This document shows positions 2,479 to 58,795 of a DNA stretch of 63,382 bases, piece by piece. The DNA is from an uncultured Candidatus Actinomarina sp. (GTDB lineage Bacteria > Actinomycetota > Acidimicrobiia > Actinomarinales > Actinomarinaceae): assembly GCA_902593475.1 (NCBI GenBank), contig CACJIM010000006.1:1-63382 (forward strand), written 5' to 3'. The notes under the pieces were generated by a model. It did no database searches, was not told where the DNA came from, and saw nothing but the letters and a program-made list of their open reading frames with translations. Numbering within the stretch: position 1 is the stretch's first letter; every line of letters begins with the position of its first letter. Position numbers and translations under genes: made by a program.

Positions 2479-3567
2479 TTAAATATTTTCTATATTTTCC
2501 CAATTTCTATCTGAATGTCCAAAATGAGAAAATAAAGTATCTTTTCTGTAATCTACGTTGGTTAAATTTAGCCTTTCAATAATAGCTCCAGGTTTCATGT
2601 CAAACTTATCAACAAAATCATCTAATTTGCTTTGTTCAACTTTAAGTGTGTCAAAAGTCTCTATTGTAAGCTCATACGGATCAGCTTTGCCAATTGCATA
2701 CGACACTCTGACTAAACAATCGTCAGCTAATTTGTGTGCAACAATATTTTTTGCTAAATGTCTGGCAGCATAAGCAGCTGATCTATCAACTTTACTCGGG
2801 TCTTTTCCTGAAAATGCTCCTCCACCTACTGGTACAGATGGGCCATAAGCATCAACTACTATTTTTCTACCTGTAAGCCCAGTGTCGCCAGCTGGTCCTC
2901 CCTTGACGAATGATCCAGATGGGTTCAAATCTAGCTCAAATTCAGATTCAACGTTACTAGCAACAATTTCAGAGACCTCTTCAAATAATTTCTTCATATC
3001 AATATCTTTATTGTGCTGGGTTGATACTACAACTTTTGTTTTTTCTCCTCCACTAGTTACCTGAACTTTTGAATCAAGATCAAGCATCTCGTCTGAGTTC
3101 TGAAGATCCCATAAAGATTTTTGTATATTTCTGGACATATCAAACGTTGGAGGCATAAATGATTTTGTTTTGTTGGTTGCAAATCCTACCATTATTCCTT
3201 GATCACCAGCACCTTGATCTTCATCGTCTTCAACAGCAGCTCGAATTTCTTCAGATTGTGGTGTTAATTCGTTATATATTGATAGATTTTCTAAATCAAA
3301 ATCTTCAAAGCTAGTCTTGATAGTTATTTTCAGTGCTTCTTTGACAATTTCAATAACATCATCAGTAGATATTGCTGCGATTTCACTGATTTCTCCTCCA
3401 ACGAGTACTAAACCACCATTCTTAGTTCCGGTAAGAAAAGTCTCAACTGCTACTCTTGACGAACTATTGTTTTCTAGAGCCTTTGTTAACACATAATCAG
3501 ATATTAAGTCCGCAATTTTATCTGGGTGTCCTGGAGACACTGTTTCAGCGGTTACATATTTTGTCAA
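2479..3567 (-). CDS. metK: S-adenosylmethionine synthetase
   Basis: AETVSPGHPDKIADLISD, GAGDQGIMVGFATN, GGAFSGKDPSKVDRSAAYAARH; TTG start with GGAGG upstream. Confidence 0.95.
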   Translation of the reverse strand: MTKYVTAETVSPGHPDKIADLISDYVLTKALENNSSSRVAVETFLTGTKNGGLVLVGGEISEIAAISTDDVIEIVKEALKITIKTSFEDFDLENLSIYNELTPQSEEIRAAVEDDEDQGAGDQGIMVGFATNKTKSFMPPTFDMSRNIQKSLWDLQNSDEMLDLDSKVQVTSGGEKTKVVVSTQHNKDIDMKKLFEEVSEIVASNVESEFELDLNPSGSFVKGGPAGDTGLTGRKIVVDAYGPSVPVGGGAFSGKDPSKVDRSAAYAARHLAKNIVAHKLADDCLVRVSYAIGKADPYELTIETFDTLKVEQSKLDDFVDKFDMKPGAIIERLNLTNVDYRKDTLFSHFGHSDRNWENIENI

Positions 3568-3599
3568 TTAAATCCTCCATAGTTATTTAAGCAAGTTTT

Positions 3600-3680
3600 A
3601 GAACGCCAATTTTTGTTGTCTAACCACATCAAAAAGCACCTTAGTTGGCAACTAGGTTGCTGAGGTATTCCTCTCTCTAT
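3600..3680 (-). promoter_or_regulatory. SAM riboswitch of the SAM-I/SAM-IV clan (metK leader)
   Basis: Minus-strand GAGAGAGGAAUACCUCAGCAACCUAGUUGCCAACUAAGGUGCUUUUUGAUGUGG; P2 GAGG/CCUC; P3 CCUAGUU/AACUaAGG with the same bulged A as metY. Confidence 0.8.
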
Positions 3681-3765
3681 GCATTTAATATGGTAATTAA
3701 AATAAAATAATTTTCAATCAACAGACAAAGAAAACTTTAAATAATTCTTTAGCTAATCTTTAACT

Positions 3766-30641: not shown

Positions 30642-31532
30642 TTAAAGCGAATTGATAAATAAATTATTTTTTGAAAGATCAATGCTTACATATATATAGG
30701 AAATCCACAAAAAATCGGCAATTGCTAGGTGCAATATGCTTAAAGGCAGAACTATATTGGATAAAACATTTATGATTCCCAGAAATACAGCAATAAGTAT
30801 TAATATTTGTAATGGTTTAACGCTTACATTATATTTTTTTCTAATCCCAGTTGCGTAAACATATAGAACTATTGATAGTATTGAGGAAATAATTGGGTGT
30901 AAAATTCTTAATCTAGTCAACACTTCGGATGTTCTGTCAAAATCTGCTAAAAACCCTTCAACAAATGAAGCGCTTGGAAACAAGACGTCAGCTAAAGCAG
31001 TGATTGAGCCGGTTGCTCCACTTAGAAGAAACAAAGAAGAAATTAATAAAAAGTTTTTGTTGAACATATTTTTTATGTTCTGAAGATCGTCTTGAAGTAT
31101 TTTATATAATATTGCGTAACTCCCTAGCAAACCAAAAGTGTTTACTAAATGAATTGGAACTGCAATGATTCTTGGAAGTGAACTATTAAGACCTACCCAT
31201 TCAAAAATGACAATTACTGCTCCGATTAGCGCCTCAAAAATTACGAAAAAGGTAAGGTAATTAGTTACCATTCTTACTAAAGAGTCTTTTTGTAATTTCC
31301 TAGTCTTTGCAAAAATTATCAAAGTAACAACTAATAAAACTCCACTTACAGAACGATGGGAAAATTCAATTAATTCTGAAGTATCTGATAATGCAGGAAT
31401 TATCTTTCCTTTACATGTAGGCCATGTAGCTCCACATCCATCTCCAGACCCGGTAGCCCTAACAAATGCACCAGCCAAAATTGAGGCTATTGATAATAAA
31501 AGACCTGCTTTTGCGTAAGACTCGACTTTCAC
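30642..31532 (-). CDS. ctaA: Heme A synthase (COX15/CtaA)
   Basis: GAFVRATGSGDGCGATWPTCKGKIIP, EFSHRSVSG, HPIIS. Confidence 0.9.
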   Translation of the reverse strand: MKVESYAKAGLLLSIASILAGAFVRATGSGDGCGATWPTCKGKIIPALSDTSELIEFSHRSVSGVLLVVTLIIFAKTRKLQKDSLVRMVTNYLTFFVIFEALIGAVIVIFEWVGLNSSLPRIIAVPIHLVNTFGLLGSYAILYKILQDDLQNIKNMFNKNFLLISSLFLLSGATGSITALADVLFPSASFVEGFLADFDRTSEVLTRLRILHPIISSILSIVLYVYATGIRKKYNVSVKPLQILILIAVFLGIINVLSNIVLPLSILHLAIADFLWISYIYVSIDLSKNNLFINSL

Positions 31533-32131
31533 AATAAATTATCTAAAAATGTTCTAAGTGAATCCCAAAATAAGGAGAATGAATTATAAATAACAATACA
31601 AAGCACCAGAAGCAAAGCAGATGTTTTGAGATTTCGAGTGAAATAAAAACCAATTTGTTTTTGATCATATATGTATGGCTCTTCGTCGGAAAATTCAAGA
31701 AGATTAGTAGTTTGTACTGGTTTTGTAAGATATTCTTCTAAAGTTTCTTCTTTTACCTCAGATACCTCAACTGATTCATAATCAAAATCATTAAGTGTTG
31801 ATTCTTTTCTTTGGAAGGTATTTCGAAGTTTATCAATTCTAGTTTGTTTAATTTGCACATCATCATTTTTTATTGAGAAGAGACTTTCTTCAGTTAATAA
31901 TGAACCTACTTCTTTTAATTGTTCTGTTGAGAACCCATCAAGTGTCTGTGTTATTTCAGTACCTAACAATCCTTCAAGAGCATTAATAATTTTTTTATCC
32001 GTAGGAAAACTTGTTCCAGCTTCCCATTGCTTAACATCTTTTACTTTTACCCCTGTAAAAGAAGCGATCTGTTTATTACTTAAGCCTCTATCAGCTTTAA
32101 GTCTTTTAAATTCTATTTGAAAATTATTCAT
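31529..32131 (-). CDS. XRE-type helix-turn-helix protein with a C-terminal transmembrane segment (RodZ-like layout)
   Basis: MNNFQIEFKRLKADRGLSNKQIASFTGVKVKDVKQWEAG...; hydrophobic ALLLVLCIVIYNSF. Start trimmed from 32269, because the upstream extension is antisense to tRNA-Sec. Confidence 0.75.
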   Translation of the reverse strand: MNNFQIEFKRLKADRGLSNKQIASFTGVKVKDVKQWEAGTSFPTDKKIINALEGLLGTEITQTLDGFSTEQLKEVGSLLTEESLFSIKNDDVQIKQTRIDKLRNTFQRKESTLNDFDYESVEVSEVKEETLEEYLTKPVQTTNLLEFSDEEPYIYDQKQIGFYFTRNLKTSALLLVLCIVIYNSFSLFWDSLRTFLDNLL

Positions 32132-32182
32132 TACTTTAATTCTATTCAATATAATTTTTTTTATATAACTAGTCTTAAGTAC

Positions 32183-32274
32183 GGAGGTGAATGAGCGCCT
32201 GGTGGGCTCCACAGTCTTCAAAACTGTTGAAAGGTGTAAAAGTCTTTGGCAGGTTCGATTCCTGTCCACCTCCG
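32183..32274 (+). tRNA. selC: tRNA-Sec (anticodon UCA)
   Basis: GGAGGUGA AU GAGCGCC-UGGU-GGGCUC C ACAGU-CUUCAAA-ACUGU UG AAAGGU-GUAAAA-GUCUUU G GCAGG-UUCGAUU-CCUGU CCACCUCC G. 6-bp D stem (one bulged G) with a 4-nt loop, UCA anticodon at 32218-32220, 6-bp variable arm, long acceptor (one A-C mismatch), 5-bp T stem; CCA not encoded. Confidence 0.93.
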
Positions 32275-32309
32275 CTACTTTATAAGATATACATGTTTAA
32301 TATAGAAAA

Positions 32310-32639
32310 ATGGCAGAAGAAAAAAGCTTATTAGATGAGGTGCAAGAAGCACCTGCTGGATTTAAGGTTTCTCCAGGTTGGAGAGTTGGTCACTTAAAAG
32401 AAGAGACCATTACTAAGTCAGGACTTCTTGTACCAGCTGGCAGTGAAAAAACTTCAGAAGCACTTCCTCTTATTGATGTTGATACAGGACAGCAGTTCTG
32501 GGCTGTAGCTAGTGGTGCATGGAAATTTATCTGGCCTCCAACTGGAAAAGTAGTTTTAGCAGTTAGAGAATCTCAAATTATTGCTGAAGAAGAGCTTTCT
32601 AAATCTTCTGAAAATGGCCAATTACCTATAATGAAATAA
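32310..32639 (+). CDS. Small conserved-looking protein with faint Cpn10/GroES-like features
   Basis: 109 aa; PGWRVGHLKEETITKSGLLVPAGS...GKVVLAVRESQIIAEEE is reminiscent of the GroES N- and C-terminal motifs. Confidence 0.5.
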   Translation: MAEEKSLLDEVQEAPAGFKVSPGWRVGHLKEETITKSGLLVPAGSEKTSEALPLIDVDTGQQFWAVASGAWKFIWPPTGKVVLAVRESQIIAEEELSKSSENGQLPIMK

Positions 32640-33959
32640 TTGAATCAGAGAAATAATCCAAACCAATCAGACAGAAGGCTTCTAACAGTATCTGATAGAG
32701 ATATCTTTGTCACTACTCAAAAAGCATTATTAATTGGAATAGTCTTAAAAAATGAAATAAGAGCTGACAAGGAAGAGTCTCTTAAAGAGCTTGTTAATTT
32801 AGTAAAAACTGCTGGATCAAGTCCAACAATAATCCAGACTAAAAGAGTAGAAAAAATTGATCCTAAAACTTTTATTGGTAAAGGTTCTATAAAAGAATTG
32901 GTAGATATCTCAGATGCAAATGATATTGATGTGGTTTTATTTGATTGCGAATTAACTCCAAATCAACAAAAAGAATTGAGAGCTTTATTCAAGTGTGATG
33001 TGGTAGACAGGACTGGTCTTATCCTTGACATATTTGCACTTCATGCTCAGTCAAAGGAAGCCAGCTTACAAGTTGAATTAGCTTTATCAATTTACTTAAA
33101 ACCACGTTTAGCTGGCTTAGGTAAAACTTTGAATCAGCAGGGCGGTGGTATAGGAACAAGAGGACCTGGTGAAACAAAACTTGAAACAGACAATAGATTA
33201 ATTGACAACAGAATTAATAAATTAAAAAGGGAAATTAAAAAAGTTAGTAAACAAAGAGAAGTGCAATCTAGCTTTAGAAAGAAAAATAATACACCCCTTG
33301 TTTCAATTGTTGGTTATACGAATGCAGGAAAATCTACCATGCTAGAAAAAATTACGTCTTCGAAAACATATGTAGCTAATGAGTTATTTGCAACTGTTGA
33401 TTCTTTACAAAGAGAGTTAAAAATTGATGGAATAAATGAGCACATCATACTCTCGGATACAGTTGGGTTTATTCAAAATCTTCCAACAACATTGATCGAA
33501 TCTTTTAAATCAACACTTACAGTTGTTAAAGAAGCAAATTTATTAATTCATGTTGTTGACGCAGCATCTGCAATACCCGAAATGCACATAAATACAGTGC
33601 ATGAAATACTAGACCAGATTGAAGCAGATGTGCCTGAAATATTGGTTTTTAATAAAATAGATAGAATTGACAAGGCATCTTTAAATTATTTAACGGAAAA
33701 ATATCCAGATGCAATATTTGTATCATCAACAAAAGGGACAAATATTGAAAAATTAATTTCTGAGATTACAACAAATGTCTTTGGTGATCTAAACGAAGTT
33801 TCGCTTATAATATCGCCTAAGGACTTGGATCAACTACACAAGTATTCTTCCATCGTAAGTGTTAAAAATATTGAAGAGGGGTTAGAAGTAACTGTAGAAA
33901 TTAGAAATTATTACCTAGAAAATCTGCTTCAAAAAGATGTTGTTAAACTTTTATCATGA
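32640..33959 (+). CDS. hflX: GTPase HflX
   Basis: GGGIGTRGPGETKLETDNRLI, SIVGYTNAGKST, LSDTVGFIQNLPTTLIESFKSTL; TTG start. Confidence 0.95.
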   Translation: MNQRNNPNQSDRRLLTVSDRDIFVTTQKALLIGIVLKNEIRADKEESLKELVNLVKTAGSSPTIIQTKRVEKIDPKTFIGKGSIKELVDISDANDIDVVLFDCELTPNQQKELRALFKCDVVDRTGLILDIFALHAQSKEASLQVELALSIYLKPRLAGLGKTLNQQGGGIGTRGPGETKLETDNRLIDNRINKLKREIKKVSKQREVQSSFRKKNNTPLVSIVGYTNAGKSTMLEKITSSKTYVANELFATVDSLQRELKIDGINEHIILSDTVGFIQNLPTTLIESFKSTLTVVKEANLLIHVVDAASAIPEMHINTVHEILDQIEADVPEILVFNKIDRIDKASLNYLTEKYPDAIFVSSTKGTNIEKLISEITTNVFGDLNEVSLIISPKDLDQLHKYSSIVSVKNIEEGLEVTVEIRNYYLENLLQKDVVKLLS

Positions 33960-56850: not shown

Positions 56851-57770
56851 AAACTAAAAAATTCTCTAAGTTCTGTTAATAGATCTACTTCATGTGTCCA
56901 TGGAACTGAGTGGCCAGCATCAGGAAAAGTTTTCACTTTTACTTCGTTTAATCTCTTAACAACATCATTTGAAGTTTCTTCTGGTACAAGTTTATCTCTA
57001 CCCCCAGTAATTACTAGGGTCTCAGCTTCAATTTCTTGTATCCAAGACCTTGCATCATAAGGAACAACAAATCTTCCCCCATCTGCGTAAATGAAGTCAT
57101 CTTTTGATTTATGCAGATTGTTCCATGCCCACTCTGTATATTCATCGTTAATAGAGTTTGATTTTTTTAAAAATGAAAACTTAGATTTTGGATTGAAATT
57201 AGGGAATAATCTTTCTCTTATTCTTACAAAACTAACAAATATTTTAAATGCTACTTTATCGCTATACACAGCACCACCAAGCCAGCTGAAAGGTGTAATT
57301 AAAACTAATTTATTTACTAATGGCTTATTTTTTTTAGCAATTGACATTGCAACTGCACTTCCCATTGACCAACCAACAATATTGCAACTTGAAATGCCAA
57401 GCTCTTTTAGAATGCTAATAACAACATCGGCATTTTCATCTACGTCCCACCTGTCCCAACTAGCATCAGACTTTCCATGATTACGCATATCTATAGCAAC
57501 AAAAGAGGTTTCATTTTTAATTTTAGGCAATATTTTAAACCAGCTTCCTAGGGAGTCTGACCCCCAGCTGTGGAGAAATATTATAGGAGTTGTGCCGTCT
57601 ATAATATTTTCTCTAATAAAGTATTCTTTTTCTCTTATGAATACAGTCCTGCCTGGAATTTTACTTGGGTGAATTTGTGTAGTTCCTGCAGATTGGCTTT
57701 TTTTGGTCTCGAGTAGGCTTTTTGTTACTGCCGTAAAAGCAAAAATTTTAGTTAGTGTTTTAATCATCAA
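56847..57770 (-). CDS. Alpha/beta hydrolase
   Basis: IIFLHSWGSDSLGSWFKI, DMRNHGKSD, NIVGWSMGSAVAMSIA, DAGHSVPW. Confidence 0.9.
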   Translation of the reverse strand: MMIKTLTKIFAFTAVTKSLLETKKSQSAGTTQIHPSKIPGRTVFIREKEYFIRENIIDGTTPIIFLHSWGSDSLGSWFKILPKIKNETSFVAIDMRNHGKSDASWDRWDVDENADVVISILKELGISSCNIVGWSMGSAVAMSIAKKNKPLVNKLVLITPFSWLGGAVYSDKVAFKIFVSFVRIRERLFPNFNPKSKFSFLKKSNSINDEYTEWAWNNLHKSKDDFIYADGGRFVVPYDARSWIQEIEAETLVITGGRDKLVPEETSNDVVKRLNEVKVKTFPDAGHSVPWTHEVDLLTELREFFSL

Positions 57771-58795
57771 CTACTAATAATATTTATTTTTTGATTATAT
57801 CTAACAGTTATATTTCCAATTTCTTTTAGAAAAACTCCATATATTTTTTCAATTTCTATCAAATCTATATCTGTTTCAGCAGGTGCAGAAATTAATAATC
57901 CTCCACTGGTTTGAGCATCTGCTAATAAAAGTGCCTCGTCTTGATCCTCGAATGAGATAATGTCTTTTACTGAGTCAAAATTTCTTTGGCTTCCTGATGG
58001 ATAAATGCCACTATGAAAATAATTTTTTGCAAACTCAATGATTGGAACTTTATCGAATATCAAATTTGCTGATAATTTTTCATCAATCAACATCTCACTG
58101 AGGTGGCCAAGAAGTCCAAAACCAGTAACGTCTGTAATTGCATTTGCATTGAGGTGCTTTGCGACTTCAAGGCCTGCATCATTTAGGGTTGTCATTACAT
58201 TTGTTACCTGATTTATTGCTTCTTCATCGGCAACGCCTTTTTTTATTGCGGTTGCAATAATTCCAGAACCGAGAGGCTTGGTTAGAAAAAGTTTATCTCC
58301 ATTTTTAATATTCGTTTTTGTATAGATTTTTTCATTAACGATACCTGTTACAGCAAAACCATATTTTGGTTCTTTGTCATCAATACTGTGCCCTCCAACA
58401 ATATTGCAATTGGCAGACTTCATTACATCTGAGCCTCCCCTAATAACTTCTGATAAGACATCAAAACCTATATCTTCTCTTGGCCAACTTACTAACTGTA
58501 AAGATGAAATAGGTGTACCACCCATGGCATATATATCAGATAAGGCATTTGTTGCAGCAACTCTTCCCCAATCGTAAGGGTTATCTAATATAGGCGTAAA
58601 AAAATCAACTGTTTGTACAATTTTAGTTTTATTGCCTAGATCAATAACCGCGCCATCATCTGGATTTTCTAACCCCACTAAAACTTCAGAATTGTTTAAA
58701 TTATTTTGTTTTGATTGCTTCAGAACCTGAGCAAGCTCTCCTTGGGAGAGTTTACATGCTCAACCTGAGCCATGAGAATACTCTGTGAGTCTCAC
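57767..58795 (-). CDS. selD: Selenide, water dikinase, itself a selenoprotein (in-frame UGA = Sec at 58760-58762)
   Basis: Minus strand: AAGGAGG-GTAAA-GTG AGA CTC ACA GAG TAT TCT CAT GGC TCA GGT TGA GCA TGT AAA CTC TCC = MRLTEYSHGSGUACKLS..., continuing in frame into the track ORF (VGLENPDDGAVID...), DIYAMGGTP, NIVGGHSIDD. Confidence 0.95.
58728..58762 (-). promoter_or_regulatory. Candidate bacterial SECIS element in selD
   Basis: UGAGCA-UGUAAA-CUCUCC-CAA-GGAGAG-CU-UGCUCA: two perfect 6-bp stems, the outer stem starting with the Sec UGA itself. Confidence 0.75.

Follow-up and report, generated by a model that had tools for sequence, protein, structure and literature searches.

A conserved tRNA-Sec gene and the selenocysteine system of the streamlined marine genus Candidatus Actinomarina

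Introduction

The bacterial selenocysteine (Sec) pathway is made up of SerRS, SelA, SelD, SelB and the SECIS element (PMC7609411). The layouts of the acceptor and T stems of tRNA-Sec described in the literature are 8/5, 9/4, 7/5, 8/4 and 9/3; of these, 8/5 is the standard bacterial form, and natural 7/5 forms are found in Cloacimonetes, Clostridiales, Rubrobacter and others (PMC5330540). The Actinomarina group has streamlined genomes of ~1.1 Mb with short intergenic spacers (PMC7771536; summarized in PMC12008989). Selenium is not mentioned in the Actinomarinales genome paper, and in the literature outside subscription journals we found no paper in which 'Actinomarina' and 'selenocysteine' appear together. 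Here we analyzed a tRNA-Sec gene (selC) that had been predicted on a contig of an uncultured Candidatus Actinomarina sp., and the whole stretch of DNA studied (63,382 nucleotides) is referred to as the window. We read it as the only selC gene of its Candidatus Actinomarina genome, and as a functional one, with Sec clients that include SelD, a SelW-like and an AhpD-like protein, and we give this reading a probability of about 97%.

Identification of the tRNA-Sec gene

The original prediction had placed a tRNA-Sec with a UCA anticodon at positions 32183-32274 (+ strand), to be checked with an Infernal tRNA-Sec model and ARAGORN. When the window was searched with Infernal and Rfam 15, RF01852 was the sole family reported at this locus (75.4 bits, E = 1.1e-13; curated cut-off, 47 bits), with no other Rfam family scoring there, and ARAGORN returned tRNA-SeC(tca), extended by one base (32275), as the window's only tRNA. 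The gene runs from G1 at 32183 to the discriminator G at 32274, which are exactly the predicted limits, and it is followed by CTA, so that no CCA is encoded, again as proposed. The anticodon TCA (32218-32220), which reads UGA, sits in the expected 7-nt loop, CUUCAAA. The D stem, GAGC-G-CC/GGGCUC, has 6 bp, the 4-nt UGGU loop and the single unpaired G (32197) that had been described; this is the part of the molecule associated with SelA recognition, compensatory changes were present in it, and the bulge is common to most of the sampled Acidimicrobiia tRNA-Sec. The predicted 6-bp variable arm AAAGGU/GUCUUU is also there, and two of its six pairs are G-U. The long variable arm and G73 are associated with SerRS recognition; two-sided changes were observed in all five of the variable-stem pairs counted, and the discriminator was G in all the sequences. 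A consensus scan found no sigma-70-like promoter or terminator near the gene.

The molecule thus shares with the bacterial RF01852 family the UCA anticodon, the 6-bp D stem with a 4-nt loop, the long variable arm, the G discriminator, the GGUUCGAUUCC T arm and the 13 nucleotides from the T loop to the discriminator. It differs from the family in that the eighth acceptor pair is not canonical, one G of the D stem is bulged and an extra G48-C66 pair is possible. A tRNA-Ser, or another tRNA with a long variable arm (e.g., an allo-tRNA or a UGA suppressor), could be misread as tRNA-Sec, since tRNA-Sec and tRNA-Ser look alike, and weak RF01852 matches do occur elsewhere in this genome. However, the gene is the only RF01852 match above the cut-off in the whole assembly (837 kb, 60% complete), and the other matches reach at most 44.4 bits, the score of the runner-up on contig 4. 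Furthermore, such a misreading would not account for the 6-bp D stem, the 4-nt loop, the UCA and the G discriminator at 32183-32274, nor for the presence of selA, selB and a UGA-containing selD in the genome, and we consider it very improbable. The locus therefore encodes an ordinary RF01852 tRNA-Sec, almost certainly a working one. In some Actinomycetota, second and weaker RF01852 matches above the cut-off were also seen, for example two close together at G117:C45:20383-21255, and these are possibly allo-tRNA-like or tRNA-Ser genes.

Conservation of the gene and its neighbourhood

The tRNA-Sec was found in 34 of the 35 genus genomes searched and was absent only from one 78%-complete assembly. 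It is single-copy and syntenic across the genus, with an unchanged position upstream of hflX. Its conserved downstream neighbour is an hflX-like GTPase gene (32640-33959, + strand). On the other side lies a conserved divergent gene of 201 aa (31529-32134, - strand), whose N-terminus looks helix-turn-helix-like by eye only and which has no Pfam match, and, also upstream of the tRNA-Sec in the genus, a COX15-like gene. This synteny is kept even though the 201-aa protein falls to 39% identity. Between the tRNA-Sec and hflX, the window carries an ORF of 109 aa (32310-32639, + strand) with no Pfam match. It is 81-100% identical where found, and much of the genus is without it, hflX then following the tRNA directly. 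The description of the gene as lying in an otherwise empty intergenic space is a fair one, as the gap between start codons spans ~32135-32309 and the tRNA takes 92 of its ~175 bp.

In an alignment of 16 distinct sequences from the genus and the class, 99.6% of the paired cells were standard, and two-sided changes were observed in 13 of the 29 pairs. When the structures were slid by 1-3 columns as a control, pairing dropped to 42-56%. The structure is thus not a product of chance, and the tRNA-Sec is a maintained RNA rather than a relic. No match was obtained when it was compared with phage records, and therefore a phage-borne gene is unsupported. A search of E. coli with the tRNA-Sec gave nothing at this similarity.

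The eighth acceptor pair

The canonical 8-bp acceptor stem of the standard 8/5 form is not found in the Actinomarina tRNA-Sec. The A-C mismatch that had been noted at the eighth acceptor position is real, and it involves A8 (32190) and C66 (32266). Positions 8/66 are A/C in all of the 34 Actinomarina sequences parsed. Among 15 other Acidimicrobiia, where the base at position 8 is mostly U, ten have U8-C66 and five have a 3′ strand of seven nucleotides, so that a canonical 8-66 pair was seen in none of the 49 Acidimicrobiia tRNA-Sec sampled. In 43 other Actinomycetota, the combination was C-G in 14, U-G in one, A-C or U-C in 21 and another mismatch in seven, and in a sampled set composed mostly of Nitrospirota most genomes had C-A or another mismatch, C-A being the usual one in Nitrospirota. 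The idea that the mismatch is specific to Acidimicrobiia was rejected, as the phylum and Nitrospirota samples show a wider spread. A mismatch at 8-66 is normal, since it is seen across the class, in other Actinomycetota and in Nitrospirota. Neither is a canonical 8-bp acceptor a requirement of the family, given the natural 7/5 forms (PMC5330540) and the Nitrospirota mismatch.

These observations bear on whether the locus is a pseudogene, a possibility that the original prediction had named, and more precisely a decaying selC in which the A-C mismatch is the first lesion, as the non-canonical eighth pair and the bulged D stem could suggest. However, the A-C and the D-stem bulge are invariant in the 34 Actinomarina sequences, the canonical eighth pair is absent class-wide, and the stems are kept by compensatory changes. 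In addition, three genes with a UGA codon stay open around a single TGA in every genome where they were found. The pseudogene reading, which we consider extremely improbable, is thus largely refuted by conservation. Since the A-C does not vary within the genus and a canonical pair is missing from every sampled Acidimicrobiia tRNA-Sec, this apparent defect is a lineage trait and not a sign of decay.

The 7/5 tRNA-Sec of other bacteria (PMC5330540) offer the nearest comparison. Like them, the Actinomarina molecule has seven canonical acceptor pairs, and it shares the D-stem bulge with those of Clostridiales; unlike them, it has one extra nucleotide on the 3′ side, C66. True 7/5 tRNA-Sec, with a 3′ strand one nucleotide shorter, were seen in five other Acidimicrobiia (L171, L176-L179), three of which are without the D-stem bulge.

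Layout of the acceptor/T helix

In the minimum-energy fold of the Actinomarina tRNA-Sec, C66 is paired with G48 (32248), the base directly 5′ of the T stem. Of the 42 distinct phylum sequences with A or U at position 8 together with C66, 39 show the same pair in their minimum-energy folds, where it gives a T stem of six pairs and restores a total of 13. In most of the sampled Acidimicrobiia tRNA-Sec, C66 can pair with G48 in this way, in a 7+6 instead of an 8+5 arrangement. It is therefore suggested, and only suggested, by the predicted folds and the survey that C66 may pair with G48 to form a 13-bp acceptor/T helix of 7+6 rather than 8+5, a proposal to which we give odds well short of even. 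G48 is invariant in all types, including those in which 8-66 pairs, and no covariation is seen at 48-66; since G48 does not vary, covariation cannot confirm the 7+6 form.

The same invariance of G48 fits a molecule of standard 8+5 layout in which a mismatch is tolerated, A8-C66 perhaps forming a protonated A-C pair, and G48 is left unpaired. It is also favored by Nitrospirota, where C-A mismatches occur at 8-66 without compensation at 48-66, no pair being possible there. Against it, a protonated A-C pair is not available to the ten sequences from other Acidimicrobiia that have U8-C66, the minimum-energy folds prefer 48-66, and in Actinomycetota with eight nucleotides per side A8 or U8 always occurs with C66, with the exception of one U-G. 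On balance, we consider the tolerated mismatch within 8+5 somewhat probable. The broader proposal, that Actinomarina and many other Actinomycetota of the A/U8-C66-G48 type have a 7+6 tRNA-Sec, as a third layout beside the bacterial 8+5 and the archaeal/eukaryotic 9+4, and that SelB and SelA read that register, is a tentative one that may well prove wrong. No 7/6 layout of tRNA-Sec was found in the literature covered, to which the main article about unusual cloverleafs (Mukai et al. 2017) does not belong. If the 7+6 form were true, the rule that SelB recognizes an "8-bp acceptor" would need new wording.

The selenocysteine machinery

The genes selA and selB adjoin on another contig of the same genome (C2:16650-19543), with selB directly after selA. 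SelA scored 386 bits (cut-off, 268). The SelB score of 189 bits is below the curated cut-off of TIGR00475 (242), and hence this protein was named by gene order, by the winged helix (its SelB winged-helix domain is present) and by conservation. The window itself holds selD, the gene of selenophosphate synthetase (57767-58795, - strand), with a GTG start after AAGGAGG and a Sec codon, UGA, as its twelfth codon (58762-58760; GSGUACK). The original prediction had pointed to a UGA-containing selD about 25 kb from the tRNA gene, and the measured distance is 25.5 kb. With TIGR00476, the part after the UGA scored 333 bits, and reading through the UGA raised the score to 381 bits. The nearest relatives of this selD, as found by tblastn, are Candidatus Actinomarina single-cell and metagenome assemblies (99% identity to AG-911-M23). 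Exactly one TGA was present in each of the 36 full-length selD copies of the genus. In the genus, selA was detected in 32 and selD in 37 of 39 genomes. With selA, selB and selD all present in genome and genus, the predicted set of genes for Sec decoding is there.

In line with the established bacterial route, the tRNA-Sec would be charged with serine by SerRS, SelA would convert the serylated tRNA to Sec-tRNA using selenophosphate from SelD, and SelB would carry the Sec-tRNA to UGA codons that have a hairpin 3′ of them. Among the clients in the Actinomarina genome would be SelD itself, along with one SelW-like (CVVU) and one AhpD-like (CEYU) protein. We infer expression, charging and use of the tRNA-Sec from its sequence and from the genes that accompany it.

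Selenoprotein genes and candidate SECIS elements

Family searches in 16 genus genomes found the SelW-like protein (MEIKLEFCVVU...) with one TGA in all of 15 matches and the AhpD-like protein with one TGA in all of 13; in the genome under study, the genes lie within the stretches C4:7300-8600 and C10:9500-11000, respectively. In the three proteins, the conserved in-frame UGA falls at the redox or active site (GSGUACK in SelD, CVVU in the SelW-like and CEYU in the AhpD-like protein). Hairpins were found 3′ of the UGA in all three genes. The one in selD, which is centred on CUCUCC-CAA-GGAGAG (58731-58755, - strand), lies a few nucleotides 3′ of the UGA and is a candidate bacterial SECIS, the same sequence being folded in relatives. 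Covariation was seen in only one pair, in the SelW element, which switches between C-G, U-A and G-C across species (eight sequences).

The number of selenoproteins is at least three, as obtained from searches and from targeted stretches of the genome. When the window was scanned for further UGA read-through genes, selD alone was convincing. The Prx/TlpA family (PF00578) was rejected as a source of Sec genes, as its members had no TGA. The molybdopterin Fe4S4 domain (PF04879) gave one open gene of ~780 aa per genome, with no TGA, which was taken as NuoG by its length; hence nothing pointed to a Sec formate dehydrogenase. GrdB/PrdB (PF07355) gave no match, and the control was equally silent.

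Selenocysteine use in streamlined marine genomes

The tRNA-Sec belongs to a known family, and the modest news lies in the conserved use of selenocysteine in the streamlined Actinomarina, together with the possible 7+6 fold. These bacteria live free in the ocean with genomes of only about 1.1 Mb, and yet they keep the full selenocysteine machinery to serve at least three proteins. As they do so while nothing points to a Sec formate dehydrogenase, selenium seems to be worth its genomic cost to them. In the part of the Global Ocean Sampling selenoproteome report considered here (PMC2398784), SelW-like, SelD and AhpD-like 1 proteins are common, and the same three families are present in Actinomarina with one UGA each; unlike in that part, where Actinomarina is not named, the genes are here tied to one genus. 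A named genus can thus now be linked to three selenoprotein families that are among the commonest in the sea. A practical consequence is that gene prediction in which every UGA is taken as a stop will shorten the Actinomarina selD, selW-like and ahpD-like genes; standard gene calling would truncate the SelW-like and AhpD-like genes at the UGA.

Other RNA elements in the window

Two SAM-I/IV riboswitches were also detected in the window, both on the - strand. The first (2359-2451, 70.7 bits) precedes the gene of a Cys/Met-metabolism PLP enzyme (1053-2333), and the second (3599-3687, 59.2 bits) precedes metK (2479-3567).
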